Positions 6,675 to 46,731 of a DNA stretch of 64,000 nt are shown piece by piece. The position numbers and the translations under genes were made by a program. The notes below the pieces were generated by a model. The model was not told the origin of the DNA. It made no database searches and saw only the letters and a program-made list of their open reading frames with translations. Each line of letters opens with the position of its first letter. Position 1 is the stretch's first letter. The stretch is from Gammaproteobacteria bacterium (lineage in GTDB: Bacteria; Pseudomonadota; Gammaproteobacteria; Tenderiales; Tenderiaceae): contig JACQEP010000004.1 in NCBI GenBank assembly GCA_016200485.1, forward strand, positions 62,001 to 126,000, in the 5' to 3' direction.

Positions 6675-7820
6675 CTATTCTGCTACGCTGGTATTTCCAG
6701 GAATCACATACTCGTCCGGGATGGGCAAATCATGCAATTCCCTTTTCGATGACCTGAAGCCAGTCTTCTTTAAGTGATAGATGTAGGCCAATACCTGTGC
6801 GACTGCCACATATAAACCTTCGGGAATTGCTTGATCCAGTTCAGTATGGTGATAGATCGACCTTGCCAATGGCGGTGCTGACAAGATTGGAACATTAGCT
6901 CCTTGAGCTATACGTCTGATTTCGAACGCCACCAAATCAGCTCCTTTTGCAACAACAATGGGCGCCCGCATCTTCTTCTGGTCATACTTGATTGCAACGG
7001 AAAAGTGCGTAGGGTTCGTGATGACAACATCGGCCTGAGGCACTTTCTGCATCATTCGCTGCATTGCTATCTGTTGCTGAATTTGCTTTACCTTCCTCTT
7101 AATTTCTGGACTACCATCCGTTTCCTTATGTTCCTGCTTAATTTCTTCGTGCGTCATCCGAAGCTGCTTATGAAAGCTCCATAACTGATAGGGCGCATCC
7201 ACCGCAGCCACTAATATCATTGGCAAACTTGCCCATAGAAACACCCATCCCAGAACCTGCACTGACGATGCCATTGCATGCTCCAACGATAGCTTACCAA
7301 GGCCAAGCATTTCATCGGTATTTACCCACAGAACAAATATTCCAACGCTACCTACCAATAGAAGCTTTAAAAAAGCTTTTCCCGCCTCAACCAGGCTATT
7401 CAAACCAAGCATCCGCTTTATCCCAGAAATAGGATCCAGCTTTGAAAAATTAAAAGCCAAAGCCTCTGTCGAAAAAATCCAGCCGCTTAGGGCGGTGGAG
7501 CCATAGATTGAGGCTACGAGGATGATTACCGCCAATGGAACTAGACTTAATAAAGCTACTTGAATACTCTCAAGGAACAGCTGTATTCCATATGTATCAC
7601 TAAAAATAAGCGATTTATCAAGAGTCAAGCTTGTGCGCATAATGCCTGCGAGTGCGTTGATAATCATTCCTCCGAACACCAGCAAACCTATTGCTGACGA
7701 CACAAGAACCAAGGTCGTGCCAAGATCACGCGATCTCGCCACCTGCCCCTTCGCCTTTGCATCAGATAGGCGTTTTTCAGTGGGTTGTTCTGTACGTTCT
7801 TGGCCGTCGAATTCAGCCAT
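6675..7820 (-). CDS. flhB: Flagellar export switch protein FlhB
   Basis: This 381-residue inner-membrane protein has four hydrophobic segments between about residues 33 and 215 and a cytoplasmic C-terminal domain. The autocleavage site NPTH lies at residues 269-272, the same positions as in enterobacterial FlhB. Cleavage there changes export specificity from rod/hook to filament substrates, in response to FliK. The N-terminus has the usual charged motif ERTEQPTEKRLSDAKAKGQ. It follows fliR with two bases between stop and start. Confidence 0.98.
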   Translation of the reverse strand: MAEFDGQERTEQPTEKRLSDAKAKGQVARSRDLGTTLVLVSSAIGLLVFGGMIINALAGIMRTSLTLDKSLIFSDTYGIQLFLESIQVALLSLVPLAVIILVASIYGSTALSGWIFSTEALAFNFSKLDPISGIKRMLGLNSLVEAGKAFLKLLLVGSVGIFVLWVNTDEMLGLGKLSLEHAMASSVQVLGWVFLWASLPMILVAAVDAPYQLWSFHKQLRMTHEEIKQEHKETDGSPEIKRKVKQIQQQIAMQRMMQKVPQADVVITNPTHFSVAIKYDQKKMRAPIVVAKGADLVAFEIRRIAQGANVPILSAPPLARSIYHHTELDQAIPEGLYVAVAQVLAYIYHLKKTGFRSSKRELHDLPIPDEYVIPGNTSVAE

Positions 7821-7822
7821 TA

Positions 7823-8593
7823 CTATTCACTCAGAATACTCATCATCATTTCCGTAGACTGATCGAACATAGCTACCATTTGAGAAAATGTGATTGGCAA
7901 TGTCACAAGCATGATCACAAATCCAGCCATAATTGTGATCACAAATCCAATTGCAAAAATATTCATTTGGGGAGCCGCACGCGTAACCACACCGAGCACA
8001 ATATTGATTGCCAGCAACGCTGTCACTGCTGGCAAGGCAATCATGATCCCGCCCGCAAATATCCAGGTACCGAAAGTGGCGATTGATAGATATTTCTCAG
8101 TTAACAAACTACCTGTAACAGGAATCAGATCAAAACTACTCGACAACACGCCAACAATTGCCAGATGCCCATTAATCGATATAAACAGAAGAATCGCCAT
8201 AATGTTATAAAACTGGGCAATGACCGGAACACTAACCCCCGTCTGCGGATCCATCATCTGGGCAAAACCAAGACCCATTTGCATACCGATAATTTGTCCC
8301 CCATTTATAATGGCCGAAAAAATGATCTGGCAGACAAGCCCCAGTGCAACGCCAATGACTACTTGATTAAATATCAAAGAAATAATGCTTGAGTTCGAAA
8401 AATCAGTGGCTGCCGTTTCAGTAATTCCAGGCGCGATCGCAACCGTTAACGCAAGGGATAATATTAATTTTATCTTCACGGGGATCATGCCAACACTGAA
8501 TACGGGAGCTACGGCCACAAATGACGCCACTCGAAAAAAAGGCAGCATAAAGGCTGAGATCCACTGTATTAGCATGGCGTCTGTCACAACCAT
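7823..8593 (-). CDS. fliR: Flagellar export protein FliR
   Basis: This multi-pass inner-membrane component of the FliPQR export core is nearly all hydrophobic, with about six membrane helices. The frame opens at a TTG at 8617 that overlaps the fliQ stop. The ATG at 8593 gives MVVTDAMLIQWISAFMLPFF, which lines up with the N-terminus of Pseudomonas FliR from memory, so it is preferred (256 residues). It lies in the unbroken fliO-P-Q-R-flhB run. Confidence 0.95.
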   Translation of the reverse strand: MVVTDAMLIQWISAFMLPFFRVASFVAVAPVFSVGMIPVKIKLILSLALTVAIAPGITETAATDFSNSSIISLIFNQVVIGVALGLVCQIIFSAIINGGQIIGMQMGLGFAQMMDPQTGVSVPVIAQFYNIMAILLFISINGHLAIVGVLSSSFDLIPVTGSLLTEKYLSIATFGTWIFAGGIMIALPAVTALLAINIVLGVVTRAAPQMNIFAIGFVITIMAGFVIMLVTLPITFSQMVAMFDQSTEMMMSILSE

Positions 8594-8609
8594 AGTTACG
8601 GCCCAATAA

Positions 8610-8879
8610 TCATCCAATTAGGTTTGGGATATCCAAAACCAGTCTCTCAAAATAATTTACAAGCAAAGAAAGCAGCCACGGCCCTGCAACAAGCAACACG
8701 GCGAAAGTGGTGAGAAGTTTTGGAATAAATGTCAGCGTTGACTCGTTGATTTGAGTAGCTGCTTGGAATACGCTTACAAGAATACCCACTATCAAGGAAG
8801 GAACTAACATCACCAGCACCATCAAAACTACCACCTGCAATGCATCGGCCGCGATACTCATTACGGTTTCTGGTGTCAT
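8610..8879 (-). CDS. fliQ: Flagellar export protein FliQ
   Basis: The 89-residue protein has the two-helix architecture of FliQ: an N-terminal MTPETVMSIAADALQVV, a hydrophobic helix, the conserved loop SVFQAATQINESTLTFIPK and a second helix. Four copies normally assemble with FliP and FliR in the export channel. It starts 3 nt after fliP ends and its stop lies just before the fliR start. Confidence 0.97.
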   Translation of the reverse strand: MTPETVMSIAADALQVVVLMVLVMLVPSLIVGILVSVFQAATQINESTLTFIPKLLTTFAVLLVAGPWLLSLLVNYFERLVLDIPNLIG

Positions 8880-8882
8880 AAT

Positions 8883-9623
8883 CTAACTCACATAAAAACT
8901 GGATGCCAGCGTACCCATAATCAACACCCAACCATCAACCAGTACAAAAAGCATTATTTTGAACGGTAATGAAATAACAAGCGGCGATAACATCATCATC
9001 CCCATTGCCATCAGTACACTCGCTACAACCAAATCTATAATCAGAAATGGGATGAATATCAAAAATCCTATTTGAAACGCTGTTTTAATCTCGCTCGTCA
9101 TAAATGCCGGGATTAAGACCGTCATTGGAATGTCATCCATCTTGTTCTCGTCCACCTCAATGCCGGCCAACTCTGAAAACAAGTTCAATTCCGAATCTCT
9201 AACTTGATTAGACATGAATTTTTTAAACGGCGCTAATGCGGCCGGAAATGCCTCTTCCACACTCTTTTTTTCATCAAGATAGGGGCCAATACCATCGGCG
9301 TATGATTTTTCAAGCACTGGAGTCATGATGAAGAATGTCAAGAACAGCGCCAATCCGACTAATATTTGGTTAGTGGGTGTGGACATTGTCCCGATCGCCT
9401 GCCTGAGCAGAGCCAGTACAATGATAATTCTGGTAAAACTGGTCATTGCCAGAATTGCCGCTGGCAAGAATGTAAGCGCTGTCATTACTGCCAGCACTTG
9501 TATACTGAGCGAATACGTCTGACTACCGTTTGGATTTACCGTTACGGTGACCGCATCTAGCCCTGTCTGGGCCGATACCAACCCTGGAATAAGCATCAAT
9601 ATCAAAACAGCCACAATATTCAT
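8883..9623 (-). CDS. fliP: Flagellar export protein FliP
   Basis: The 246 residues begin with a cleavable-looking signal peptide (hydrophobic core, LVSAQ at about residues 15-19), as known for FliP. The family signatures follow: [20 protein letters not shown], the large periplasmic loop, and [19 protein letters not shown] near the C-terminus. FliP forms the core pentamer of the export gate. Its start overlaps the fliO stop by four bases (ATGA). Confidence 0.98.
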
Positions 9624-10090
9624 TGACCACCTTTCTCTTTCATCACTTTTTTCAGGCGATCCAGAAACTGTCCTCCATCGGGCATCGTGGAGACATCACG
9701 ATTAATTGCAACCTTGTTTTTGAGTACATGCAGTTTTGTAACATTGCCTGGCGCAACACCAACAAGGATTTGCTCATCCCCGATCTCAATCAATACAACT
9801 CTTTCCTTTTGACCAACTGATATTCCACTTCTGATGATTAGAGCATTATCGCTTCCCATCTTTAATGTACCGTAACGCTTTGCCAGCCAGCCTATGCCAA
9901 TAATTACTGCAATTACAAAGCTCAAACCAATAATTGTTCTAAATAGTTGCCCACCAATCGAAATCTCGGGGGTTGCCCTGGGTAGCTTCTGAGTCGTGAC
10001 TTCCGCTGCAAGCACAGGATCAATCATGAAAACCGATGCGCATACGATTAGAGATATCGCCACTAATACCCTATAACAACGGCTACTCAT
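9620..10090 (-). CDS. fliO: Flagellar export assembly protein FliO
   Basis: This small membrane protein helps assemble the FliP ring. It has an N-terminal hydrophobic segment ending in VLAAEV (a possible signal peptide), a second membrane helix ([20 protein letters not shown]) and a short cytoplasmic domain with the family motif [20 protein letters not shown]. The frame extends to a TTG at 10102. The ATG at 10090 has GGA at a good distance and is preferred. It lies between fliN and fliP as in most flagellar operons. Confidence 0.93.
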
Positions 10091-10112
10091 ATTTTTATCC
10101 AACCTACTGATA

Positions 10113-10538
10113 TCAACGTAGTTTCTTTATCCGCTCTGCAGCGCTAATAACGTCCGTCAGGCGAATACCAAATTTTTCATTCACTACAACTACCTCGCCA
10201 TGAGCGATCAGAGTTCCATTAACGAGCACATCCATCGGTTCACCTGCGAGCCTATCAAGCTCAACGACGGATCCTTGATTTAATTGCAATAGATTTCTAA
10301 TTGATATCTTCGTCCTTCCGATTTCCATGGACACAGTTACGGGTATATCTAATATAACTTCCAGATTCTGATCATTCGAACCACGATTACCTGTATCATC
10401 GAGCTCAGAGAGCGGGGCGGATTGATATTCCTGCTTCGGCTTTTCAGTCTCGGATGTCGTCTGCTGCTCGGAAAGCGCCGCAGCCCATTCATCGGCCACA
10501 GCATCCTGCTCGCCTGAACCTACTTGATCATTACTCAT
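10113..10538 (-). CDS. fliN: Flagellar motor switch protein FliN
   Basis: This 141-residue C-ring component has an N-terminal variable segment to about residue 60 and a C-terminal SPOA domain. The signature is VTVSMEIGRTKISIRNLLQL, GSVVELDRLAGEPMDVLVNG and GEVVVVNEKFGIRLTDV. FliN lines the bottom of the C-ring and contributes to FliH docking and switching. fliM ends 14 nt upstream. Confidence 0.97.
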   Translation of the reverse strand: MSNDQVGSGEQDAVADEWAAALSEQQTTSETEKPKQEYQSAPLSELDDTGNRGSNDQNLEVILDIPVTVSMEIGRTKISIRNLLQLNQGSVVELDRLAGEPMDVLVNGTLIAHGEVVVVNEKFGIRLTDVISAAERIKKLR

Positions 10539-11552: not shown

Positions 11553-12080
11553 TTATTGGATCACAAAGTTGGTGAAATAGACTTCTTCGATACCCGGCTT
11601 GCCGGATTTCTCTGTCATGATTGCCTGTAGCTTACTCAACACTGTTGATCTAATTTTATCCTTGCCCTCTTGGCTAATCAGATCACCATAGTCTTGGCTA
11701 CTAAAAATCATGATCAATTCGTTGCGAATAACAGGCATATGCGTTTTGATTTGATCCGGCACGAGTGGATCATAGGTCATCACCTCAAGCTCCACCTGTA
11801 AAAATCGTAGCCCACTTTCTGTTTCAAAATTGACAGTAATCGGCTTATCAAACGCAAAATAGACGGGCACCTTCTTAACATTTGCTACAGCCCCTTGAGG
11901 CTGTTCCGCCTCAACCTTCTTGTGCCCGATAACCCCAGTCATAAACAGCGCGGTCCCTGCGATGCTGGTGACTCCCAACCCGCCCAGGATCAAAAGCAGC
12001 ATCATTTTTTTCTTTTTATTACCTGGGGCTTCGGACTCGGCGCCTTCGCTCTCACTTGCTTCTGTCTTTTTTTCAGCCAT
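11553..12080 (-). CDS. fliL: Flagellar basal body-associated protein FliL
   Basis: This 175-residue single-pass inner-membrane protein has a short charged N-terminus rich in Glu and Lys, a membrane helix at about residues 27-50, and a periplasmic domain ending in KPGIEEVYFTNFVIQ, the conserved FliL terminus. It associates with the stator and supports torque. It is the first gene of the fliLMNOPQR-flhBA run and has a sigma54-type promoter at 12116-12131. Confidence 0.95.
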   Translation of the reverse strand: MAEKKTEASESEGAESEAPGNKKKKMMLLLILGGLGVTSIAGTALFMTGVIGHKKVEAEQPQGAVANVKKVPVYFAFDKPITVNFETESGLRFLQVELEVMTYDPLVPDQIKTHMPVIRNELIMIFSSQDYGDLISQEGKDKIRSTVLSKLQAIMTEKSGKPGIEEVYFTNFVIQ

Positions 12081-12115
12081 ATATCCATCCAGTTTGTGTT
12101 TACTGACAAAGTCAA

Positions 12116-12131
12116 TGCAAAGTCTATACCA
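12116..12131 (-). promoter_or_regulatory. Sigma54 promoter candidate for the fliL operon
   Basis: The minus strand reads TGGTATA-GACT-TTGCA, against the consensus TGGCACG-N4-TTGCA. GG and GC are separated by exactly ten bases, as -24/-12 elements require. The fliL start is about 35 bases downstream. The -24 box carries two transitions relative to consensus, so it is the weakest of the seven sites listed. Confidence 0.7.
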
Positions 12132-12303
12132 GTATTATTTTTTAATAAAATACAGATGGTTACATATTTCACATCAAAAGAGAGACGGGATGTTGACGCT
12201 TTGATGAGTAATTTACGAGGTCGCTGTCAAAGGCTAGACAGCATTAAGGGTTAAGGCAGGAACAGCATTAAAGAATTGGACTGACTGGAATCAGACCTTG
12301 GAA

Positions 12304-13620
12304 TCACGCATAAAAATCAACCGCCAGCGCCAACCCTTGATCAGACGGGTAGTAGCTGCGGCTAGCGATCCCCACGTTGATATCCTCATCATTGAGTGCA
12401 AGTGTCCCACCATTCATCGATCGCTGTTCAGATTGACGCCGTTGCTGGGGATCGCGAGAAGATTGCCCAGATACCTGGGCATCGGCAAGCATCAAGCCAT
12501 TAGACTGAAACAACTCACGCAATCTTGGCATCGAGCTTTCGATCGCGTCTCTGGTTGAGCTGTGATTTGCCGAGAAATTGATACTTGCCTGGTCATCGTT
12601 AAGTGTTATCCGCACCTCAATTGGCCCTAGATGCGCAGGATTAAGTCTTAACTCAGCTGTCTGCACCCCTTCCTTGGTCATCATGAGGATGCGCTGACCA
12701 AACTCCGATTTCCATTGTGGGCTTGCCAGTGGTATATCCAGCGCTGTCGCCCAATTTGACTTCATGGGGCTAGTGGTGGTTTCAGCCACTGATTTAAGGA
12801 TGTTTGCGCTACGATCTCTCACATTTGACGAGGAATGAAGCCCAGTCAACGCTGCCAGATCAGAATCCATTCCCTTATCTATCCCCTCTGACATGCTTGT
12901 TCTGACCATCAATGGCACAATGGAAGCCCTTAATGTGTCAGAAACTCCCGTATTTTCCTGTAGCGAAATACTTTCCAACTTTATCGGAGTCACATCCGCC
13001 TGATCAGACACCTCTGATTGCTTCGCTTTCAGATGTGCCAATATCTGTGTTGGCAACAGCGTAGGCTGTAAATCTAAGGCCGTGTCCGCCACCTCTAACG
13101 GAATCAGTGGCGTACCAGTACCATCCCCGATAACACCAGCAGACAACTTCATCAGAATTGCCGGTGGCAATGTGCGTTCCACACCGGTAGATAATTGTGT
13201 GTCTATCGCTGGTCCCGGCAGAATCGGAGTACCCGAGACAATGATCGAGGTAGATTGTTGCCCCTCAATCAAAGGCTGCTGCCCTTCCAGCACGGGTTGC
13301 CCGAGCTGTTTAAATTGCTGTACCAGCATTTCCAGGGATTGATCTTGCGACACCCCGCCGGCCATACCGTTAGCCAAGAGCGATGAGTCAAGGGTCGATA
13401 GCGGCAAAGGCTCTCCGCCCTGTGGCAATAGTTGCTGCATTGCCGCCACATCGGATGCAGGCTCCTCTACCCCACCCAACAATTGCCGCAGTAAATCCCC
13501 AAACTCTTCACCCGATATAACTAGTTGATTTTCTGATAGATTAGTGCCCTGCCCAAAAGCAAGCGCAGGATTAATAACCTGCGACGAAGTCACTAGCGAT
13601 GATGTTGCTGAGTTTTCCAT
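12304..13620 (-). CDS. fliK: Flagellar hook-length control protein FliK
   Basis: The 438 residues have the low-complexity N-terminal and central region typical of FliK, rich in Gln, Ser and Pro. The conserved C-terminal Flg_hook domain includes LRLNPAHLGPIEVRITLNDD and a region ending near LFQSNGLMLADAQVSGQS. It measures hook length and triggers the FlhB switch. It has its own sigma54-type promoter (13662-13677). The 223 nt downstream, before fliL, contain only the fliL promoter and a short direct repeat (ACAGCATTAA). Confidence 0.93.
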   Translation of the reverse strand: MENSATSSLVTSSQVINPALAFGQGTNLSENQLVISGEEFGDLLRQLLGGVEEPASDVAAMQQLLPQGGEPLPLSTLDSSLLANGMAGGVSQDQSLEMLVQQFKQLGQPVLEGQQPLIEGQQSTSIIVSGTPILPGPAIDTQLSTGVERTLPPAILMKLSAGVIGDGTGTPLIPLEVADTALDLQPTLLPTQILAHLKAKQSEVSDQADVTPIKLESISLQENTGVSDTLRASIVPLMVRTSMSEGIDKGMDSDLAALTGLHSSSNVRDRSANILKSVAETTTSPMKSNWATALDIPLASPQWKSEFGQRILMMTKEGVQTAELRLNPAHLGPIEVRITLNDDQASINFSANHSSTRDAIESSMPRLRELFQSNGLMLADAQVSGQSSRDPQQRRQSEQRSMNGGTLALNDEDINVGIASRSYYPSDQGLALAVDFYA

Positions 13621-34264: not shown

Positions 34265-36754
34265 ATGGATATTCAACCTGGACTAGGTAACTTCCTCACC
34301 AATCGCTTTGGAGAAAGGTATCTGTATTCCGTTAATGGAATTACCTTCACGCAAACCGATTCAACATCGATCTACCAAAGCCACTTTGGCAAACGATTAT
34401 TTCGTGAAAACCACCTATACATCATCGTGGGTACAGATTCAGGGCTACTACCCAAATACATCCTCCATCGTGGCATTCCCGAAGGCAGTCGATACCTCTT
34501 TATCGAACACGACGAAATTTTTAAGGTTGTCACCCCTGAGTTCACAGATCTAAATACTCAACAAAAATTAGCATGCTGCTCGGCTTCAAGGTGGGAACAA
34601 ACTGCCACCGAATTCTATTTCAGTGAGTATGCGTATACCGATTCAATATCCCTCTTCAAATCATTAGCAGTCACAGATTGTTACTTACCTCAGTATCGAG
34701 AAATTTGGTGCGATATCGAGCACGCATACAATACTCGATTATGGGCAACCCAGGCGCAACTTGGCACCTCCATCTTTTGTCAACGCCAAATAGAAAATCT
34801 TGCCGAAAATAATATACCTGCCACCGTTCTTCGGAAACTGGGGTCTGGCCAAACTGCCGTTATCATGGGAGGAGGCCCCTCCCTGGATGAAATATTGCCC
34901 TGGATTCAGGAAAACAAATCAAAAATCACCACCATCGCGGCATCGCGTATTTCACGGAGACTTCTGGAATATAATTTATACCCAGATATAGTGGTTTCAG
35001 TAGACCCGCATCCAATCAGTTTCGATGTCAGCCGAGAAATGTTGCTGCTTTGGAAGCATACTTTACTAGTAAATGCTAATCATATAACGCCACTGCTCCT
35101 TGGCCAGTGGCGCGGCCGCAATGTTTATTTCGATGAAAAATTTCCATGGACGAATCGCTATGATAATGACAATGTTTTAAGCGCTGCTGGCCCAACAGTT
35201 ACTAACTGTGCGTTATCTCTAGCTATAGAAATGGGGTTTTCACAAATTATCCTGGCGGGCGTTGATCTCTGTTTTTCCAGAGAGGGATTTTCTCACGCAA
35301 AAGGTAGTAATGAAAGCATCGCAGGACCAACTATTAACATGGCGACTAGGCGTGTCAAAACCAATGCTGGAGATTGGGCGGAAACTGAAAACTCTCTATT
35401 CAAGGCAGTAACCTCTTTAGAACAACAGGCAAAACTTGCTTGTGATCACGGAATCAAGATCATCAACCCTGCGCCTAGTGCCGCCATGATAGAAGGTATT
35501 TCCTATACCCCTTGCCAGGAGATCATCCTGGGCGATCTGGCACACTCCATTAAGCAAAGTATAGACGCAATACTGTCGAAATATGATCAAGTATCAAAAA
35601 CAAAACATCTAAACAATGTTATTGATGAACTTTCCCAAGCAGCTGACAAGTTAAAACGGATGGATTCTCTAGTTTCGAAGGCAATCCTATATAACAATTC
35701 TCTATTTGATAAAACCGCACCAAGAAGATCAACTGGCTATAAAGAAAAATTAGACAAAATTGAAGAGATTCTTAGCAAGAAATACAAAGAATATTCAATT
35801 TTTTCAAAAATATTTGGGATGACAAAATTTGTCCGGCTACTCAAGCCATTTGATGCATCCACAATAAAGGAAGATGCGGCCATAGAACTCGGCCGTTCCT
35901 ATTATCTTGCCTATCAGGCTGGAATAAAGGAACTCTCAAGAATAATAAATGAGGCCATAGAACGAACAAAGTCACGTCGCATGGAATTAGAAAACACATC
36001 CGATATTGACATACTTTCAAAGCAATGGAAAAAAGATAACCAACCAGGGCGCGTGTTGATTTTAAAAGACAAACATGCCGGGATTATTAATTCACCCAAT
36101 GCCGCTGGAAATGAGCTATATAGCGAACTTGAGGCGAGCTTCAATGCGTCACTATCAAACATGGATACACCTCACATGCGCCGCTCAAAGACGTTCGCAG
36201 ACCTTCGTGGCATAGACAACAAGGCAAGCGAACTTTATAACAACTCTGACTCGCAGGCTCTTAAACGACTTTTGTCAAGCTTACAAGCACACCCAGATGA
36301 ACGCGCGCGCGCGCTTACCCATTTGGTCTCAGGATATTTGGCTGAAATAGAAAATAATCAAGCAAAAGCAATTACCGAATATCAATATGCTGATGCCCCA
36401 CCGGCAATCGAGCCTGCATTGCGCCGCCTATCCATGATAGCTCTCGACATGGGAGATTATGATAGTGCTACCATTGCCCTAAAGTCACTCGCAACCCTGT
36501 CGCCCGTGTATATTCCACAACTCTCGGAATTACTCCGTATTAAAGGCGATCTGCTTGGGGCATTGGACACACTCACTGAATATCTTGAATTCGCCGAGGA
36601 TGACTTCCATGCCATGCTTAGAGTTGGCCTAATATATCGTGAACTTGGTCAGAATGATAACGCCGACTGGGTTTTCCGCTATATTCTTGAAAAAGATCCC
36701 GCTAATTTTGCGGCAAAAAATCTATTGGAAAATAAGGATTCGGCTCATGGGTAA
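34265..36754 (+). CDS. maf: Motility accessory factor Maf (MptE-like DUF115 glycosyltransferase)
   Basis: This 829-residue Maf-family protein has the DUF115/MptE-like core at about residues 165-420, with AVIMGGGPSLDE (about 198-208), VSVDPHP (about 246-251) and LAGVDLCFSREGFSHAKGS. Maf proteins transfer nonulosonic acids (pseudaminic, legionaminic) to flagellin Ser/Thr in Campylobacter, Aeromonas and Clostridium. From about residue 670 a TPR-like tail follows (ALTHLVSGYLAEIENNQAKA; AIEPALRRLSMIALDMGDYD), which makes it longer than typical Maf. A (CG)6 tract lies at 36302-36314. It overlaps legB by eight bases and is the first gene of the operon. Confidence 0.88.
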   Translation: MDIQPGLGNFLTNRFGERYLYSVNGITFTQTDSTSIYQSHFGKRLFRENHLYIIVGTDSGLLPKYILHRGIPEGSRYLFIEHDEIFKVVTPEFTDLNTQQKLACCSASRWEQTATEFYFSEYAYTDSISLFKSLAVTDCYLPQYREIWCDIEHAYNTRLWATQAQLGTSIFCQRQIENLAENNIPATVLRKLGSGQTAVIMGGGPSLDEILPWIQENKSKITTIAASRISRRLLEYNLYPDIVVSVDPHPISFDVSREMLLLWKHTLLVNANHITPLLLGQWRGRNVYFDEKFPWTNRYDNDNVLSAAGPTVTNCALSLAIEMGFSQIILAGVDLCFSREGFSHAKGSNESIAGPTINMATRRVKTNAGDWAETENSLFKAVTSLEQQAKLACDHGIKIINPAPSAAMIEGISYTPCQEIILGDLAHSIKQSIDAILSKYDQVSKTKHLNNVIDELSQAADKLKRMDSLVSKAILYNNSLFDKTAPRRSTGYKEKLDKIEEILSKKYKEYSIFSKIFGMTKFVRLLKPFDASTIKEDAAIELGRSYYLAYQAGIKELSRIINEAIERTKSRRMELENTSDIDILSKQWKKDNQPGRVLILKDKHAGIINSPNAAGNELYSELEASFNASLSNMDTPHMRRSKTFADLRGIDNKASELYNNSDSQALKRLLSSLQAHPDERARALTHLVSGYLAEIENNQAKAITEYQYADAPPAIEPALRRLSMIALDMGDYDSATIALKSLATLSPVYIPQLSELLRIKGDLLGALDTLTEYLEFAEDDFHAMLRVGLIYRELGQNDNADWVFRYILEKDPANFAAKNLLENKDSAHG

Positions 36755-37760: not shown

Positions 37761-38935
37761 TGAACAAAACAACGATCCAAGAAGCATTCAAAATACTCGC
37801 CGGCGCATTCCCTGAGGCAAGAAAACCTATAGGCCTGCATGAGCCCAGCTTTTCCGGTCAAGAATGGAATTATGTAAAAGACTGCCTCGATAGTGGATGG
37901 GTATCTTCGGTAGGTGAGTACGTCAACCGCTTCGAACGTATGCTGGAAGAATACACCGGGGTCAATCATGCCATTGCGACTGTCAATGGCACAGCCGCTC
38001 TCCATATATGCCTAATCCTAGCGGGTGTCTCCGCAGATGACGAAGTTTTAATTCCATCACTCACATTTGTTGCGACTGCCAATGCGGTAAGATATTGTGG
38101 TGCAATCCCACATTTTGTCGATGTTGATCTTCTGTCACTTGGGATCGATACAGTTAAACTGCGCACATACCTTGAACAGATCGCTATTAGAAAATCGGAT
38201 GGCTGCTACAATCGCAATACCGGCCGCAGAATCCGTGGCCTAGTAGTAATGCACACCTTTGGCCATCCAAGCGACCTTGATTCAATTCAATCTGTTTGCC
38301 AGGAATACAATATCACTTTAATAGAAGACGCCGCTGAAGCCTTAGGCTCCTTCTACAAAGGTAAACACTGCGGTAATTGGGGGGCATCTGCGACACTCAG
38401 CTTTAACGGAAATAAAGTTGTTACCTGCGGCGGCGGCGGTGCAATACTAACTAATAATAAAGATATCGCTCAACAGGCCCGCCACATCACCACCACTGCA
38501 AAGTTACCGCATGCCTGGGAGTTTTATCATGATCAAACAGGATATAACTACCGAATGCCTAATATTAATGCTGCCCTGGGGTGTGCTCAACTGGAAAAGC
38601 TACCTACATTTATTAGAGAGAAGCGTGAAATTGCCAAGAACTATCATCGTCTATACGCCAATTTCAATGGTGCCCATGTATTTAATGAACAACAATATTC
38701 TTCAAGTAATTATTGGCTAAATCTCCTGATCTTTTCAGGCATTACTCGCCATGAACGGGATGAGCTACTAGGAATGTGCCATGAAGCGAACATATTATGT
38801 AGACCCATATGGACCCCTATGCACCGCCTCCCAATGTATGAGAGTTGTCCACGAATGGATTTATCAATCACCGAGAAGTTACATGAACGTGTAATCTGCT
38901 TACCAAGTGGTACGAGGCTATCACGCCATGAGTAA
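37760..38935 (+). CDS. legC: PLP-dependent sugar aminotransferase (LegC)
   Basis: This 391-residue DegT/DnrJ/EryC1-family enzyme has GWVSSVGEYVNRFE, the PLP-contact EDAAEALGSFYKG and a Schiff-base Lys at about residue 219 in SFNGNKVVTCGGGG. It should aminate the 4-keto sugar made by LegB. Start and legB stop share one base (TAATG). Confidence 0.9.
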   Translation: MNKTTIQEAFKILAGAFPEARKPIGLHEPSFSGQEWNYVKDCLDSGWVSSVGEYVNRFERMLEEYTGVNHAIATVNGTAALHICLILAGVSADDEVLIPSLTFVATANAVRYCGAIPHFVDVDLLSLGIDTVKLRTYLEQIAIRKSDGCYNRNTGRRIRGLVVMHTFGHPSDLDSIQSVCQEYNITLIEDAAEALGSFYKGKHCGNWGASATLSFNGNKVVTCGGGGAILTNNKDIAQQARHITTTAKLPHAWEFYHDQTGYNYRMPNINAALGCAQLEKLPTFIREKREIAKNYHRLYANFNGAHVFNEQQYSSSNYWLNLLIFSGITRHERDELLGMCHEANILCRPIWTPMHRLPMYESCPRMDLSITEKLHERVICLPSGTRLSRHE

Positions 38936-40082
38936 GCTAAAGATTTCCGTTGTCACCGGGTCGAGAGCTGATTATGGGCTTCTGTGGCCATTGCTTCAAG
39001 CTATCGACAAGGATAGCCAGTTAAAGTTACAGATCATAGTTACCGGCATGCATTTATCCCCTGCCTTTGGACTCACCTACCAACAAATAGAGGCTGATGG
39101 TTTTACCATTAACGCATCGGTTGAAGCCCTCCTCAGCGGCGACACAGATGTTGCCATAGCAAAATCAATCGGCCTGGGTATCATAGGATTCGCCGATGCC
39201 TACGCAAATCTTGATCCTGACATGATTGTGGTGCTTGGTGATCGCTTTGAAATTTTTGCGGCCACACAGGCGGCTGCGGTGGCAAAAATTCCGATTGCCC
39301 ATATCGCAGGTGGCGATGTCACGGAGGGCGCCTACGACGAATCATTCAGACACTGTATTACAAAGTTGTCACACCTTCATTTTGCAACTAATGCCGATGC
39401 CGCAAGACGTATAATCCAGCTTGGAGAAGAATCATGGCGAGTACATACCGTTGGAAGCCCGGCCATAGATGTAATAAAAAACATGAAGCTTCTTACTAAG
39501 CATGAGCTTGAGACAGATCTTAACATTAAATTCCGCGACAAAAACATTCTGGTCACATTTCACCCTCCTACGCTGGATAATGATGCTGGTCGCCAGCTCA
39601 CCGCTTTGTTGGGCGCACTGGATGACACTTGCGCTGATTGCGGCATTATTTTTACCTTATCAAATGCCGATACTGGTGGACTAAAATTAAATAGCATGAT
39701 CAAAGAATACACTTCTAGTCGAGCCAATACTTTTGTATATTCATCCCTTGGCCAACTTCGATATTACAGTCTGCTTTCCAGGATCGATGCCATAGTGGGT
39801 AATTCATCCAGTGGACTATATGAAGCACCCAGCTTCAAAGTGGCAACAGTGAACATTGGTAACCGTCAGCTTGGTCGCTTACGTGCGATGTCAGTCATCG
39901 ATTGTGATCCAGAAAGACGGGCGATATCTAAAGCCATTCTCCAGGCGTTTTCCCTTGACTGCACTGATAGCACTAACCCTTATGGTGACGGGAATGCCAT
40001 TAGTCGCATAATGTCAGTGTTAAAATCAAATTTTTCGCGTGATGAGCTTATCCGCAAGCGATTTCAGGACTCCAGAAAATGA
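38928..40082 (+). CDS. legG: Hydrolysing nucleotide-sugar 2-epimerase (LegG/NeuC family)
   Basis: This 384-residue enzyme is of the UDP-GlcNAc 2-epimerase (hydrolysing) family, with VVTGSRADYGLLWPLL, VVLGDRFEIFAATQAA, HIAGGDVTEGAYDESFRH and GNSSSGLYEAPSF. It would release the 6-deoxy-diacetamido-mannose used by LegI. Its presence points to legionaminic rather than pseudaminic acid, whose pathway uses the unrelated PseG. ATG 38928 overlaps legC by eight bases (ATGAGTAA). Confidence 0.92.
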   Translation: MSKLKISVVTGSRADYGLLWPLLQAIDKDSQLKLQIIVTGMHLSPAFGLTYQQIEADGFTINASVEALLSGDTDVAIAKSIGLGIIGFADAYANLDPDMIVVLGDRFEIFAATQAAAVAKIPIAHIAGGDVTEGAYDESFRHCITKLSHLHFATNADAARRIIQLGEESWRVHTVGSPAIDVIKNMKLLTKHELETDLNIKFRDKNILVTFHPPTLDNDAGRQLTALLGALDDTCADCGIIFTLSNADTGGLKLNSMIKEYTSSRANTFVYSSLGQLRYYSLLSRIDAIVGNSSSGLYEAPSFKVATVNIGNRQLGRLRAMSVIDCDPERRAISKAILQAFSLDCTDSTNPYGDGNAISRIMSVLKSNFSRDELIRKRFQDSRK

Positions 40083-41164
40083 ATACCAAAGATGGCGTCT
40101 ATATTATCGCAGAGGCCGGTGTCAACCATAATGGTGATTTAGATCGGGCTTTGGCAATGATTGATATTGCAGCGGACTGCGGCGCAGATGCAATCAAATT
40201 CCAGACCTTTATTCCAGAGCTTCTAGTCTCACACCACGCGCCAAAAGCGAATTATCAAATAGCCAATACCGGGGATCAAGAATCACAGCTCGCCATGTTA
40301 AAACGGCTAGCATTGTCATTTAGCGATCACAATTTATTACTTGATCGATGCCAACAAAAAAATATTGATTTCCTTAGCTCTCCATTTGATACTGAAAGTG
40401 CTTCTTTTCTTATCAGGACACTGAAAATATCCAGGATAAAAATAGGTTCCGGTGAACTTACTAACGCCCCACTTTTATTACATATTGCCCAGCAAGGTGT
40501 CTCCGTTATTTTATCTACTGGCATGAGTACTCTTGATGAGGTAAAAACAGCGCTCGGTGTACTTGCCTTCGGTTATCTAAATTTTTCCAATATTCCTTCT
40601 GAGGAGGAGTTCAATCGCTGCCTAGAATCACCAGAAGCATGGACCGTATTAAAAATCAGAGTGACACTCCTACATTGCACCACAGAGTACCCATGCCCTT
40701 ATGATGAAGTTAATCTACGTGCCATGGATTCGTTACGTGATGCTTTTGGTCTCGCCGTGGGATACTCGGATCATACATCTGGAATCGCGGTAAGCATTGC
40801 AGCTACAGCAAAAGGAGCCACTGTCATCGAGAAACACTTCACCTTGGACCGAGCTCTGCCTGGACCAGACCACAAAGCATCGTTAGAGCCCACTGAGCTT
40901 AAGGAACTGACCAAATGCGTGCACCAGGTCTACCTTGCTATGGGTAATAGCATCAAGGGCCCTTCCTCCCATGAGCTCGCTAATCTCGCCATTGCCAGAA
41001 AAAGCCTGGTAGCTAAAAAGCCAATCAAAAAGGGAGATATATTCACGGAAGAAAATATTACCGTTAAACGTCCGGGAAGTGGCCTTCCACCTATTAAGTA
41101 TTGGAAATTGATTGGTAACTTCGCCCATCGGGATTATGCCGAGGATGATCAGATTCAACTATGA
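40079..41164 (+). CDS. legI: Legionaminic acid synthase (LegI, NeuB family)
   Basis: The 361-residue protein has the NeuB TIM-barrel, with IIAEAGVNHNGDLDRALAMI, DAIKFQTFIPE, KIGSGELTNAPLL, GYSDHTSG and IEKHFTLDRALPGPDHKAS, and a C-terminal SAF (antifreeze-like) domain from about residue 295. It condenses the mannose derivative with phosphoenolpyruvate. Overlap with legG is four bases (ATGA). Confidence 0.94.
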   Translation: MNTKDGVYIIAEAGVNHNGDLDRALAMIDIAADCGADAIKFQTFIPELLVSHHAPKANYQIANTGDQESQLAMLKRLALSFSDHNLLLDRCQQKNIDFLSSPFDTESASFLIRTLKISRIKIGSGELTNAPLLLHIAQQGVSVILSTGMSTLDEVKTALGVLAFGYLNFSNIPSEEEFNRCLESPEAWTVLKIRVTLLHCTTEYPCPYDEVNLRAMDSLRDAFGLAVGYSDHTSGIAVSIAATAKGATVIEKHFTLDRALPGPDHKASLEPTELKELTKCVHQVYLAMGNSIKGPSSHELANLAIARKSLVAKKPIKKGDIFTEENITVKRPGSGLPPIKYWKLIGNFAHRDYAEDDQIQL

Positions 41165-41811
41165 ATACTCCCATAATCATCCTTGGCAATGGCGGGCACG
41201 CGCTAGTCTTATATGAAATACTTCAATCCTTACATTGGCAGATAAAAGGATTCGTCTGCCCAGACAATAGTGGCGACAATAAACTTTCCACCATTCCCAG
41301 ACTTGGTGGTGATCAAAGCGTATTGGCATTCAAACCGGAAGATATTCTTCTCGTCAGTGGTATTGGCTCTGTTGGCGACAATTCATTGCGTCGTAGCATA
41401 TATGAAACATTTAGTAGCAAAGGATATCAGTTTGCGCAATTGATACACCCAAGCGCGAACATCAGTCAATTGGAAGTCACCCTCGGTTTTGGTACTCAAT
41501 TGCTCGCTGGAGTCAGAGTCGGACCGGCTGTGATTATTGGTGATAATGTTATTGTTAATTCTGGCGCCATCATAGAGCACCATTGCAACATTGGCACCCA
41601 TAGTCACATTGCCAGCGGTGCCATTCTATGCGGGCAATGTCATATAGGCGTCAATGTTCACATAGGTGCAGGTGCCGTACTAAACCAAAACATCTCTATT
41701 GGCGACAATTCTATTGTTGCTTCTGGCGCAGTCGTCATACACGACGTTCCCCCTAATACCATGGTAGCAGGCATACCTGCCGTCACCAAAAAGAGGTTAC
41801 AAAGCTCATGA
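41161..41811 (+). CDS. legH: Sugar N-acyltransferase, NeuD/PglD family (LegH)
   Basis: The 216 residues comprise an N-terminal Rossmann-like domain (IIILGNGGHALVLYEIL) and a left-handed beta-helix of hexapeptide repeats (GDNVIVNSGAIIEHHCNIGT), with the His pair that marks the active site in PglD. It would N-acetylate the 4-amino sugar. Overlaps with both neighbours are four bases. Confidence 0.88.
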   Translation: MNTPIIILGNGGHALVLYEILQSLHWQIKGFVCPDNSGDNKLSTIPRLGGDQSVLAFKPEDILLVSGIGSVGDNSLRRSIYETFSSKGYQFAQLIHPSANISQLEVTLGFGTQLLAGVRVGPAVIIGDNVIVNSGAIIEHHCNIGTHSHIASGAILCGQCHIGVNVHIGAGAVLNQNISIGDNSIVASGAVVIHDVPPNTMVAGIPAVTKKRLQSS

Positions 41812-42857
41812 ATGATTGGCGCACTATTGCAGTAAAACCCAGCGATACCATGCAAAAAGTCATGCAGGTTATCGATACTGGACGAATGCAGATCGCTTTA
41901 GTGGTCGATGATAATGATCATTTGATAGGCACCGTAACAGATGGCGACATTCGCCGGGCCATACTCAAGGGACGGGGACTAGATACTCCAGTCCAGGAGT
42001 ACATGAATAAAAACCCGACTACCGGCCTTATCGATGAGGAACCAAGCTCATGGCAACGCACAATGCTGAGACACACACTTCGTCATCTACCATTGCTAGA
42101 TGCTGGTGGGTGTATCGCAAAATTAACATTTTTAGAGCCCCCAAGAGAACCAGTTCGTGATAATCCCGTCGTACTCATGGCAGGTGGATTAGGCACTCGC
42201 CTCCGTCCATTAACGGAGAAAAAACCAAAACCGCTTCTGACAATCGGTAACAAGCCTATTCTTGAGACAATAATTGAAAATTTCGTCAGCCAGGGATTTC
42301 ATAAATTCTATGTTTGCATTAATTATAAGGGCGATATGATTCGCGAACACTTTAAGGATGGATCACAATGGGACGCGTCAATTACTTACATCGAAGAAAA
42401 CAAACGTCTTGGTACGGCCGGTGCACTAAGCCTTATCAAAGACAAGATTGATCTTCCGTTTTTTGTCATGAATGGCGACTTACTCACCAAGGTTGACTTC
42501 GTGCGTCTATCTGAATTCCATAAGCAACAACAAAACACCATCACCATGTGTGTTCGGGAATATCGCTATCAAATTCCCTATGGAGTTGTCAGCCTAGATC
42601 GGCACAGAATTACTGGAATAAGCGAAAAACCAATTCAATATTACCAAGTTAATGCTGGAATTTATATGCTAGATCATGAAATAATCAATGACATACCACA
42701 CAATCAATTCTACGATATGACGACACTTATAGAAGTGATACTTGCAAAAAATATAACTGTTGGTAGCTTTCCTCTACGCGAATATTGGATGGATGTTGGT
42801 CGAGTTGAGGATTTCGAACAGGCGCATAGTGAATATTTTGATCAGTTCGAACAATAG
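41808..42857 (+). CDS. ptmE: CBS-domain sugar-1-phosphate guanylyltransferase (PtmE-like)
   Basis: The 349-residue protein has two CBS domains (about residues 1-115) fused to a nucleotidyltransferase with VVLMAGGLGTRLRPLTEKKP and NGDLLTKVDF. In Campylobacter PtmE makes the GDP-activated glucosamine precursor used by LegB, so it would supply the start of the pathway although it is last in the operon. The 131-nt convergent gap to legF shows no convincing terminator. Confidence 0.88.
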   Translation: MNDWRTIAVKPSDTMQKVMQVIDTGRMQIALVVDDNDHLIGTVTDGDIRRAILKGRGLDTPVQEYMNKNPTTGLIDEEPSSWQRTMLRHTLRHLPLLDAGGCIAKLTFLEPPREPVRDNPVVLMAGGLGTRLRPLTEKKPKPLLTIGNKPILETIIENFVSQGFHKFYVCINYKGDMIREHFKDGSQWDASITYIEENKRLGTAGALSLIKDKIDLPFFVMNGDLLTKVDFVRLSEFHKQQQNTITMCVREYRYQIPYGVVSLDRHRITGISEKPIQYYQVNAGIYMLDHEIINDIPHNQFYDMTTLIEVILAKNITVGSFPLREYWMDVGRVEDFEQAHSEYFDQFEQ

Positions 42858-42988: not shown

Positions 42989-43690
42989 CTAGGAGTCTAT
43001 CTTCCTCGTCTGCAGTAATTCGCAGGCCCTTTCAAGATCATGCTGACAATCAACATCAATAGAAGATTGCTCACTCATGATATAAGGGATGGTCTCATCC
43101 CCATAAAATCCGTGAAAACCATCTACCGGTGCGATATAAATGGCACCATTAGGAAGGTAACACTTAGGTAAAGACTGGCGCCGTGGACTACTCAGATCAA
43201 TCCCGAAGTGACTGTAGATATAACCATTTTGATTAAGACCGAAGGCCCATAACAACTTGCTATCAATTTCCTTTACCGAGACCAATGTGTCATTGCCTGA
43301 TCGCTTCTGTAAAAAAAACATATCAATGGCTTCAATAATGTGATTTTTATCCCTTAGGGGAGACGTCGGCTGCAATAAAATCACAAAATCAGCATCAAAA
43401 TCGGTATTTTCAATCGCATGTGCCACAACATCATTTCCGCTCGCCGTATCGCTGGAAAGGTATTCTGGTCTAATAAAAGGTGTCCATGCACCATATTTTT
43501 CTGCGATATCTGCGATATTTTTTGAATCTGTGCTTACAATCGTTCGATCAATATATTTGCACCCACGAGAAGCCTCAATGGTCCATGCGAGCAATGGCTT
43601 TCCGCCACAGTCGAGAATATTTTTATTCGGCAATCCTTTTGAACCGGCCCTAGCCGGGATAATGGCCAAGATTTTATTTTTTCCTATCAA
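42989..43690 (-). CDS. legF: CMP-legionaminic acid synthetase (LegF, NeuA family)
   Basis: The 233-residue cytidylyltransferase has the signature IIPARAGSKGLPNKNI, VSTDSKNIADIAEKYGA and LLQPTSPLRDKNHI. It activates the nonulosonic acid as CMP-sugar for transfer by Maf. A T8 run on the coding strand (43311-43318) encodes Phe-Phe. It is the last gene of a minus-strand operon with the radical SAM protein 30 nt upstream. Confidence 0.93.
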   Translation of the reverse strand: MIGKNKILAIIPARAGSKGLPNKNILDCGGKPLLAWTIEASRGCKYIDRTIVSTDSKNIADIAEKYGAWTPFIRPEYLSSDTASGNDVVAHAIENTDFDADFVILLQPTSPLRDKNHIIEAIDMFFLQKRSGNDTLVSVKEIDSKLLWAFGLNQNGYIYSHFGIDLSSPRRQSLPKCYLPNGAIYIAPVDGFHGFYGDETIPYIMSEQSSIDVDCQHDLERACELLQTRKIDS

Positions 43691-43720
43691 AACACTTCCT
43701 TCATACCATGAATAAATTAA

Positions 43721-45298
43721 TCACTTTAAATTCTTTAACATGGGGGCCGATATCTTTTCAGCAATAAAATTATGTGAAGGTTTAGGAATTGCGTATGGCT
43801 TTATAGATTCGTCAGATTTATTCCAGTGTTTTTCTGCCAAATCCAGCAATCTTAGATCTTTCTTGGCCACTATCTCCTGCAACCCCAGGAGTTCCATACC
43901 TGAAAACTTGTGGCAAATCGTTGCAGTAATTTTTGTGGCATCACCAAGATCCATAATGTATCTTTCCAGGTTACCGTCATACTGCTCAATTATGGAATCT
44001 TTGTAGGTATAATACCATTCAGAGCCTGGGTAAGCAGTGGCAAAATGAGGCTTGGCATGTATTCCAAGCTTGACCAATGACTCAATGGTGTTTCTGAGAC
44101 TTTTAAAATCTTCCTCAGGAAATCCTATGATAATGTTAGGTATAGGCTTAATGCCAGATTCTAGACAAATACTAATGCTCTGCTCATTTTTCTCGGAAGT
44201 TGATCCTTTTCCAAGCTTTTTTAGAATCCTTTTATCGAATGACTCCAGACCATATACCAAATGTGTACAACCGGCTTCATACATCTTTTTCAGAATTTCA
44301 GGTCGATGAAGCGCTGCATGACTAGTACCGCTCCAGAAAACACCATGGTTTTCAACTTGATCAAATGGAACATTCAAGCGGCGACAATCTGGTTGCAATC
44401 CTCCTTCAATCCATTTACGGCACAACTCATCTAACCATGTCATTTTACTGTAGCGATCCATGGTCATCAGGTTTTCATCAAGAAAGTTTACAAAATCTAT
44501 GCCATATTCACCCTTAAGGTGTTTTACCAAACTTACGATGTAGTCAGGTGAATGATAACGAATGTTTCTTCCATAAGTAAACGCTACATCATTTTCCCCG
44601 GTTGGATCTTCACGAACTATCATGTCCCCTGTTGTTCCAAGATGCCAGCAATAACGGCAGACCAGATTACAACCATAACTTGCATTTACATCGATACGTC
44701 GTTTGGCATAATAGGCCTCTTCACTGAAAAGCGATGAAGAGTTTTTTAAATATATCTCTTCAAGCGGAAATAGATCCCATGCCGGCCAGGGTATGGTATC
44801 GATATCAGAAATATTTGGCCGCTCCTTGTTGACAGTGATTTTTCCGTTATCACGATGAACAACGCCAAGCGTATTTCCCCAATCGAAATCCTTGTTATCT
44901 ACCTTTGCTAGCACTTCAGGAAATGTGATGTAAGCTTCGCCAATAATGCCCAAGTCAATCTGAGGCACCCAGTCCATTATTTCTTTAGGCATGCTCGTAA
45001 GAAATCCGCCACCCGCGATCAAAAAACTATCTGCGGCATGAATCTTCGCTAGCCGACATACTTCCTTTATAAAATTATATGTTGTCGTTAAGCCGCCAAT
45101 AGCGACCACATCCCAATGATCGGCCTCAAGGACTTGCTTTACGATATTAAACCCTTTGCGCCAGGCATTCGCATCATATACTTGAACCGCATGCCCACTT
45201 TTCCTTGCGATTTCGGCAAGTATAGCCATACCGTAAGGGATGTGCCTTGGAACGTCTTCCTCGCGCACGACAGGGTTAATAAAAAGTATTTTAGCCAT
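43721..45298 (-). CDS. B12-binding-type radical SAM protein of the glycosylation island
   Basis: The 525-residue protein has an N-terminal cobalamin-binding-like domain (about residues 1-150: ILFINPVVREEDVPRHIPYG, VAIGGLTTTYNFIKEV, FLIAGGGFLTS) and a radical SAM barrel with the 4Fe-4S cysteines C210, C214 and C217 (GCNLVCRYCWHLG). Later motifs include FVNFLDENLMTMDRY, VYGLESFDKRILKKLG and PNIIIGFPEE. Members of this superfamily often methylate unreactive carbons, but the substrate cannot be read from sequence. Its location between the DUF115 gene and legF suggests sugar or flagellin modification. It overlaps the DUF115 gene by eight bases. Confidence 0.85.
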   Translation of the reverse strand: MAKILFINPVVREEDVPRHIPYGMAILAEIARKSGHAVQVYDANAWRKGFNIVKQVLEADHWDVVAIGGLTTTYNFIKEVCRLAKIHAADSFLIAGGGFLTSMPKEIMDWVPQIDLGIIGEAYITFPEVLAKVDNKDFDWGNTLGVVHRDNGKITVNKERPNISDIDTIPWPAWDLFPLEEIYLKNSSSLFSEEAYYAKRRIDVNASYGCNLVCRYCWHLGTTGDMIVREDPTGENDVAFTYGRNIRYHSPDYIVSLVKHLKGEYGIDFVNFLDENLMTMDRYSKMTWLDELCRKWIEGGLQPDCRRLNVPFDQVENHGVFWSGTSHAALHRPEILKKMYEAGCTHLVYGLESFDKRILKKLGKGSTSEKNEQSISICLESGIKPIPNIIIGFPEEDFKSLRNTIESLVKLGIHAKPHFATAYPGSEWYYTYKDSIIEQYDGNLERYIMDLGDATKITATICHKFSGMELLGLQEIVAKKDLRLLDLAEKHWNKSDESIKPYAIPKPSHNFIAEKISAPMLKNLK

Positions 45299-46301
45299 CT
45301 GTTTTATCCAGAAAATCTTTCAACCTGATGCAGGTAATGCCATCCCCGAATAACGTTCCGCCTTCCGTACAGTTGTATAAAGTGGATGCAGAGTTTGCAA
45401 CCAGCTCAAGTATATTTCTGCGATACCAATAATATGTCGGGTCAGTATAAAATTTTTCGCCAGTTAGTGGATTCTTAATCACTGGAAATAATTCTTTAGT
45501 GATGCCCTCCTCACCCAATATTTGAGCCAATTCATAATAGGTTTGTGTCATGGTATAAGGAAGATCTATTTTATACCCAAGGTCCATACCTATAACGGCG
45601 ATATTTTTAACTTTAAGCCAAAATTGTGCAAATACCCATGCCGCAGTGCCAACATTCCCCCCCGTATTCAATGCGGGCAACTTGGCAAAGTTATACATTC
45701 TCCGAGTAAGACTGTTTTCGGATTCAGGATTATCCACTAATGGCAACCACCAATACATATCGAATCCTGCTTCCTTTGTACGTGAAACAACATTAGCAGG
45801 AGCAGTTGAAGCGATAATCAATTTTGTATTTTTAGCATATCGATTTACAATTTCAATATTATCGTTATTTTGTAGAACAGAATTTTTTCTAAAATCAATA
45901 TCAAGGTCTTGTCTTGCGAAGTAATCGTCGCCGATAGTGTTTTTCTCAAAATCAGGATCACCAAACCAACGAACAAGTCGTGTTGGGTGTGGATCCAACG
46001 TCAAAACATAATCGGGAACGATTCCAGCCCTAAGGCACTTCACATAAGAGCCATCAATAGCAATGATTGTTCCTTGATACTTTGAATCGGCGAGCGTTTT
46101 CAGCGTATTGGTGTAGTGCAAGCTCGGACCGGCACTCACGACAACAGCACTGCTGGCCTTTTGGGAGGCTAGACCTGGAAGATCTTTGATTGATTTATCA
46201 ATGTGACGGACGTTAGCTTCAGAGTTCTTAATTATTGTGCTTCCGTGCCAATCGTGACCAATATTTTCAATCTTATCGACGAGAACGTCGAATTGACTCA
46301 T
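45291..46301 (-). CDS. Short Maf-like DUF115 (MptE-like) protein
   Basis: This 336-residue protein carries only the DUF115 core: VVVSAGPSLHY (AGPSL at about 57-61), VLTLDPHPTRLV (DPHP at about 103-106), NTGGNVGTAAWVFAQFW and IAVIGMDLGYK. These match the motifs of the 829-residue Maf upstream, but without its N-terminal and TPR parts. It may be a second flagellin glycosyltransferase, or may act on the product of the radical SAM enzyme. ATG 46301 has AAGGAG eight bases upstream; a GTG at 46310 is less likely. Confidence 0.82.
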   Translation of the reverse strand: MSQFDVLVDKIENIGHDWHGSTIIKNSEANVRHIDKSIKDLPGLASQKASSAVVVSAGPSLHYTNTLKTLADSKYQGTIIAIDGSYVKCLRAGIVPDYVLTLDPHPTRLVRWFGDPDFEKNTIGDDYFARQDLDIDFRKNSVLQNNDNIEIVNRYAKNTKLIIASTAPANVVSRTKEAGFDMYWWLPLVDNPESENSLTRRMYNFAKLPALNTGGNVGTAAWVFAQFWLKVKNIAVIGMDLGYKIDLPYTMTQTYYELAQILGEEGITKELFPVIKNPLTGEKFYTDPTYYWYRRNILELVANSASTLYNCTEGGTLFGDGITCIRLKDFLDKTDG

Positions 46302-46306
46302 TGAAC

Positions 46307-46492
46307 TCACTCCTTGGGTTCATTTTCATCCTCTCCGGTCCAAACGAATTTATTGCGCTCAACAAATACCATGCTACCGCCAATAGAATTCAATGCCTTC
46401 TTTCGGAATTCACTATCCAAATCTCCGTCTTTCTCACACTCATCAACAATTTCCGTATTAATTTTGTATGTGCCTTTCAGGAAATCACTCAT
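46307..46492 (-). CDS. Small acidic protein of unknown function
   Basis: A 61-residue ORF starts at ATG 46492 with a perfect GGAGG five bases upstream and stops 5 nt before the DUF115 gene. I do not recognise the family. It is acidic and Lys-rich, without membrane segment or Cys, and includes the segment KKALNSIGGSMVFVERNKFV and an acidic tail. The strong ribosome site and tight spacing support translation. A TGAAGC/GCTTCA hairpin precedes it. Confidence 0.65.
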   Translation of the reverse strand: MSDFLKGTYKINTEIVDECEKDGDLDSEFRKKALNSIGGSMVFVERNKFVWTGEDENEPKE

Positions 46493-46731
46493 ATGCGCCT
46501 CCATTTGAAGCAAATTATGCTTCAGTAGGTTATAGCGGCCATTTTTGTTTAATATTTAGTCTATTAAATGGAGATTACGGCTAGAAATAATCGGGCTGGA
46601 ATATTTATAAAAGCGCACGTTTTTTGGTCGCGCATAACAGTGCAGTATCCATACGACATAACCACTCAGTAAGCATTGACGCTAATGGCACCTAGCCCAT
46701 TACAAGTGAACTCCATCTACCTCAAGAAAAA
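46493..46731. other. Intergenic region between flgL and the small ORF
   Basis: This 239-nt region should hold the promoter of the small ORF-DUF115-radical SAM-legF operon if flgL does not read through. I found no sigma54 or sigma28 match. It contains a 6-bp hairpin (TGAAGC, 7-nt loop, GCTTCA) at 46506-46524 just upstream of the ribosome site, and a weak GCGC...GCGC pairing before a short T-run near 46605-46630. Confidence 0.5.

Follow-up and report, generated by a model that had tools for sequence, protein, structure and literature searches.

The 61-residue protein small61, a short DUF115 protein (DUF115s) and a cobalamin-binding radical SAM enzyme (rSAM) are encoded by three adjacent genes that constitute a real, conserved unit. 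This cassette is linked to nonulosonates of the legionaminic or sialic type. We infer, at roughly even chances, that it serves the tailoring and transfer of nonulosonates, with a putative target and chemistry.

In the window, the 64-kb stretch of DNA analyzed here, four minus-strand genes are found downstream of flgL. The first is small61 (46310..46492; 61 aa), with an ATG start, a GGAGG ribosome-binding site and a stop codon at 46307-46309. It is followed by DUF115s (45291..46301, with the ATG at 46301), which encodes a short PF01973 protein of 336 aa (MptE-like/Maf central domain), by rSAM (43721..45298), which combines PF02310 and PF04055 and carries a CX3CX2C motif at residues 210-217, and by a gene for a legF/PseF-like CMP-nonulosonate synthetase of family PF02348 (42989..43690), which has a TTG start and is the last of the operon. 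The small61 stop and the DUF115s ATG are 5 nt apart, DUF115s and rSAM overlap by 8 nt, and 30 nt separate the rSAM stop from the legF start; the gene set, strand and junctions given in the preliminary description are thus borne out by the sequence. The legF gene is convergent with, and on the opposite strand to, a part of the Leg pathway operon that encodes a NeuC-type epimerase, a NeuB-type synthase, a NeuD-type acetyltransferase and a PtmE-type CBS/nucleotidyltransferase (38907..42857, plus strand) and is taken to provide the sugar. Upstream of these plus-strand genes lie more sugar genes and the gene of a full-length, 829-aa Maf-type DUF115 protein (34265..36754, plus strand), a likely flagellin transferase that has the GPSL...DPHP motif in common with DUF115s. 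The entire window is a flagellar region. Scans for sigma70 promoters and terminators gave matches at chance level only.

A scan of genome contigs for rSAM yielded 78 loci, 74 of them with a full-length enzyme. The preliminary description had proposed a search for the co-occurrence of the 61-residue ORF with the DUF115 and radical SAM pair, and the three were found together in 72 of the 74 full-length loci; the remaining two are truncated by the contig, beginning within about 65 nt of its end. The order small61-DUF115s-rSAM, without a gene-sized gap and often with overlapping or nearly overlapping genes, occurs in 68 of the 74. Because this order recurs across seven phyla, the arrangement is not attributable to chance, and its presence in cultured strains and in a complete chromosome (L057), together with the spread over phyla, rules out an assembly artefact or a chance ORF. 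The rSAM tree includes Pseudomonadota, Nitrospirota, Omnitrophota, Myxococcota, Elusimicrobiota, Chloroflexota and Bdellovibrionota. Since the phylum labels require 11 changes on this tree against a minimum of 6, some transfer of the cassette between phyla is possible, with MAG binning and paralogy also to be reckoned with. Among 56 relatives the distribution is all-or-none, with all three genes in the same 4 genomes. In a set of 232 genomes from the class, both small61 and DUF115s are restricted to the window genome, where rSAM is also found, with one weak partial match elsewhere; in a separate draw of 398 genomes, small61 occurs in the window genome alone. A single copy of small61 is present in 42 of 43 cassette genomes and two copies in the other. 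A mobile or phage origin was rejected: DUF115s has no match in plasmid or phage collections, small61 is absent from viral contigs, and the plasmid matches of rSAM are only about 25% identical. A role in anti-phage defence was likewise discarded, as PADLOC gave no match. Methylobacter tundripaludum SV96, Thalassotalea and Colwellia chukchiensis are cultured hosts of the cassette, which is therefore directly testable.

The link to nonulosonates follows from the surrounding genes. Flanks of 7 kb or more on each side are available for 42 loci; among these, a legF homologue is present in 39, NeuB in 36 and NeuC in 33, and at least one of the three is found in all 42. Homologues of the cassette are thus not mostly located away from legionaminic acid loci, and on this point the preliminary description is upheld. 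A legF homologue lies on the same strand within 400 nt of the cassette in 41 of the 74 loci. The window LegF matches PF02348 (CTP_transf_3) with an E-value of 1.1e-26 and stays below the PseF equivalog cut-off, and the window NeuB scores 478 bits, above the NeuB cut-off, with PseI below its own. The best scores of 44 synthases from the loci are likewise higher for NeuB than for PseI, so that an association with pseudaminate was set aside in favor of the better-fitting NeuB type. A radical epimerase for 8-epi nonulosonates was also considered and rejected; the known 8-epi-Pse genes, epaA and epaB, encode a CTP-transferase/aldo-keto reductase fusion and its partner (PMC12053666), with no mention of a radical enzyme.

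Among the neighbors, whose family names were assigned partly by inspection, amidotransferase/HisH/HisF and formyltransferase/PIG-L genes are optional; in locus L005 the amidotransferase set is inserted between rSAM and legF. Some clusters of long-ORF neighbors in GC-rich loci are antisense artefacts and were disregarded. The optional genes correspond to established modules for nonulosonate side-chain tailoring (WbpG/HisH/HisF-type amidotransferases, and a formyltransferase with a PIG-L deacetylase), neither of which, unlike the cassette, involves a radical SAM enzyme, cobalamin or a dedicated peptide. No exporter is universally conserved, and flippase-type ABC transporters occur in some loci only.

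DUF115s belongs to the MptE-like/DUF115 family (PF01973; E=6.6e-22), and its AlphaFold2 model has a pLDDT of 94. A Foldseek search with this model returned MptE first (E 1.7e-5) and, more weakly, the GT29 sialyltransferases ST8SiaIII and ST6Gal1 (E 4e-3 to 4e-2, TM about 0.3). A profile search against the PDB retrieved MptE (8sd5, 8sbu; E=6.4e-11) and the Maf structure from M. magneticum (5mu5; 1e-4). MptE, the archaeal 6-hydroxymethyl-7,8-dihydropterin pyrophosphokinase, is hence the closest solved structure by both profile and fold, yet it belongs to a pterin context whereas DUF115s belongs to a nonulosonate one; DUF115s is also longer, and about 90 residues align by sequence. With the Maf transferases, which attach nonulosonates to flagellin, DUF115s shares the PF01973 domain, the GPSL...DPHP motif and the association with Leg genes. 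It differs in size, as Maf proteins have three domains and about 600-850 aa (about 830 aa in the window), whereas the N- and C-terminal domains of Maf are missing from the 336 residues of DUF115s. Its gene is distinct from the full-length Maf gene of the window, to whose product homology is confined to about 61 columns, and it is present in non-flagellated hosts too, whereas Maf is tied to flagellated ones. The PF01973 domain of Maf is CstII-like, and the Maf donors are CMP-nonulosonates (PMC11339370). Given the likeness of its model to MptE and, to a lesser degree, to sialyltransferases, DUF115s is probably a CMP-nonulosonate-dependent transferase.

In rSAM, a B12-binding domain (E=4.5e-14) precedes a Radical_SAM domain (2.9e-17) in which the cysteines of the CX3CX2C motif are C210, C214 and C217. 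The sequence lacks DxHxxG and reads DANAWR in its place; according to a review (PMC13331322), base-off binding of cobalamin with no His ligand is found in many members of this enzyme class. Profile matches include AprD4 and the methyltransferases CysS, TokK and TsrM. All NCBIfam matches, those to characterized methyltransferases included, fall far below their cut-offs; the top relative is ApyD (90 vs 750 bits), a B12-dependent radical SAM enzyme of a RiPP pathway that beta-methylates Tyr (PMC10635010). The B12-binding N-domain and the CX3CX2C radical SAM core are common to TsrM, TokK, CysS, ApyD and rSAM (profile matches 1e-7 to 1e-3), whereas rSAM forms a conserved subfamily of its own, in which 149 of 525 positions are at least 93% conserved, with small61 and DUF115s as fixed partners. 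With nearly even chances, rSAM would be a carbon-functionalizing, most likely methylating, enzyme acting on the same sugar-bearing intermediate as DUF115s. Cobalamin-dependent radical SAM enzymes also catalyze ring contraction, cyclization and other reactions, so that methylation is here a prior rather than a result.

The small61 family has no match in Pfam, NCBIfam, PHROGs or the sequences of the PDB. Its consensus, MxxxLKGNFxxxxxV...LExxFExxALKxLGGSIAFVxKKKVxW, is conserved over the full length, with LKGN-F/Y near the start and LGGS-I/M-A/V-F/Y-V and a Trp near the end; G38-G39-S40 are the sole invariant columns (67 of 67 sequences), and LKGN and W51 are near-invariant. AlphaFold2 gives a single helix (residues 25-37) at low confidence (pLDDT 61). 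As expected for a peptide substrate, or for a subunit that folds upon binding, no independent fold is thus predicted for small61. When pairwise identities are compared, small61 and rSAM show a partial correlation (rho) of 0.56 given DUF115s, against 0.19 between small61 and DUF115s given rSAM, with non-overlapping bootstrap intervals, a difference that could stem from sequence length or shared ancestry. In loci L034 and L066, DUF115s is displaced and small61 is still found directly 5' of rSAM. Because of these correlations and this gene order, a particular tie of small61 to rSAM is suggested, and suggested only. The preliminary description treated the 61-residue ORF as an accessory of no assigned function; its presence in 72 of 74 loci makes it instead an obligatory, strongly conserved member, and it is likely to be an obligatory partner or substrate of the enzymes. 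On the one ground of conservation, Ser40 would be a candidate acceptor, although a rather doubtful one.

The link to flagella is looser than first proposed. Flagellin is lacking in 13 of 43 cassette genomes, of which 12 also lack FlhA, a soft count as several of the genomes are incomplete MAGs or single-cell genomes; these hosts include Pelagibacteraceae, Omnitrophota, Elusimicrobia and Chloroflexota. The cassette is for this reason not flagellin-specific, and the flagellin link is not supported in its original form. A flagellar role is still likely in the organism from which the window comes, because the genes lie between flgL and the Leg operon and a weak sigma28-like site is located upstream. 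The site, TAAA-N15-GCCGCTAT (46532..46558, minus strand), lies some 40 nt 5' of the small61 start and agrees with the consensus at 10 of 12 positions; it is weak evidence, with a chance probability of about 0.07 for finding any match of this kind in the gap and of 0.008 for a strict form chosen post hoc. Flagellar co-expression of the cassette is plausible there.

We propose that small61, DUF115s and rSAM would operate as one functional cassette downstream of CMP-nonulosonate synthesis, with LegF as the presumed supplier of CMP-legionaminate. DUF115s would most likely bind the CMP-nonulosonate and transfer the sugar; its weak matches to sialyltransferases, and a top match, MptE, that is a pyrophosphokinase, speak against this. 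Using methylcobalamin, or cobalamin and a 5'-deoxyadenosyl radical, rSAM would functionalize an unactivated carbon on the same sugar-bearing intermediate, most likely by C-methylation. As a short peptide disordered on its own, small61 may be the obligatory partner of both enzymes, its Gly-Gly-Ser motif providing either the acceptor Ser or a docking site that presents the substrate. The product would reside on flagellin in some hosts, and on another surface glycan or protein in those devoid of flagella.

Other readings assign the parts differently. The preliminary description had rSAM tailor CMP-legionaminate by C-methylation, or the sugar already bound to flagellin, with DUF115s as a second flagellin glycosyltransferase and small61 as a minor accessory. 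The site between flgL and the Leg operon, the weak sigma28-like site, the flagellar neighbors at the Chromatiaceae MAG, Thalassotalea, Colwellia and Methylobacter loci, and the Nitrospira loci that carry FliC and weak matches to Maf agree with this version, but the cassette genomes without flagellin, and a small61 as obligatory as the enzymes, make it unlikely. It is less probable still that the substrate of rSAM is another sugar or a lipid from the same surface-glycan locus, altered for instance by deoxygenation, epimerization or ring contraction, and that the co-location reflects the general clustering of glycan genes. Its relatives do include BchE/HpnJ and AprD4-type enzymes, and many other sugar genes are found at the loci; those genes vary from locus to locus, however, whereas nonulosonate genes are the common denominator of all the wide-flank loci.

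A further possibility is that small61 is the precursor of a glycosylated ribosomal peptide, O-glycosylated by DUF115s with a nonulosonate at Ser40 and C-methylated or crosslinked by rSAM in a RiPP-like manner, the product being a glycopeptide that perhaps serves as a scaffold, a primer or a secreted signal. A short protein, disordered alone and encoded by the first gene of the operon, in which the Gly-Gly-Ser triad alone is invariant and LKGN and W51 nearly so, resembles such a precursor, and it stands beside rSAM in nearly every locus; Maf relatives O-glycosylate Ser/Thr, and ApyD is itself a RiPP enzyme. Against this, the putative core shows more conservation than is usual among natural products, neither a protease nor a dedicated exporter seems to be conserved with small61, and the ApyD match lies far below its cut-off. 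Pfam detects no RRE (PqqD-like) domain in rSAM, DUF115s or small61, which also counts against a RiPP, with a remote RRE still conceivable; the lack of a classical RRE in rSAM weighs against the proposal favored above as well. On balance, we consider this pathway improbable. The same low likelihood is given to a new kind of system, spread over at least seven phyla, in which a stand-alone sialyltransferase-like DUF115 protein would attach a nonulosonate to the invariant Gly-Gly-Ser of a conserved ribosomal peptide, or peptide carrier, of about 60 aa, which a cobalamin radical enzyme would remodel.

Nonulosonates are sialic-acid-like sugars that control the assembly of flagella as well as recognition by phages and by immune systems. 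To our knowledge, their tailoring consists of acyl, amidino, O-acetyl or epimer chemistry. A search of 5.4 million open-access papers returned nothing relevant on radical SAM enzymes together with flagellin glycosylation, legionaminic or nonulosonic acid, DUF115 or MptE-like proteins, in keeping with the earlier statement that no described system with this gene set was known. Because the three genes travel together in nonulosonate clusters of at least seven phyla, the cassette is indicative of a chemical step, as yet undescribed, in the decoration of bacterial surfaces. If the proposal is true, a cobalamin-dependent radical step with a dedicated, conserved peptide would represent new chemistry on bacterial sialic acids, a function would be given to an unnamed family of small proteins, and the roles of short DUF115 proteins outside flagella could be put to the test.

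A candidate sigma28-like promoter, TAAA-N15-GCCGCTAT, is predicted from the sequence upstream of the gene for the 61-residue protein (small61), at positions 46532-46558 of the window on the minus strand. The cassette that this gene forms with those of the short DUF115 protein and the B12-binding radical SAM enzyme is also located within nonulosonate gene clusters of Pelagibacteraceae genomes of about 1 Mb, which lack flagella (loci L069-L071).

In L005, amidotransferase, HisF-like and HisH-like genes (7756-10513) separate the radical SAM gene from legF and have the same direction, and in an Omnitrophota locus a split transketolase-like pair adjoins legF downstream of the cassette (L023:12317-14085). 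A different, second B12-binding radical SAM protein is encoded immediately downstream of the L018 cassette (11586-13403); a comparable but weaker radical SAM match follows the cassette in L025 (11698-12792). One Dehalococcoidia genome contains two small61 copies (L034:9756-9947 and L034:21318-21506; see also L112), the latter heading a gene run read as HisF, HisH, a WbpG-like amidotransferase and PtmE.

The window genome encodes a second NeuB-family synthase, 34% identical (L115; contig C17, around 38104-38703). An NTP/CMP-transferase adjoins it, so this genome perhaps harbors a second nonulosonate-like pathway elsewhere.
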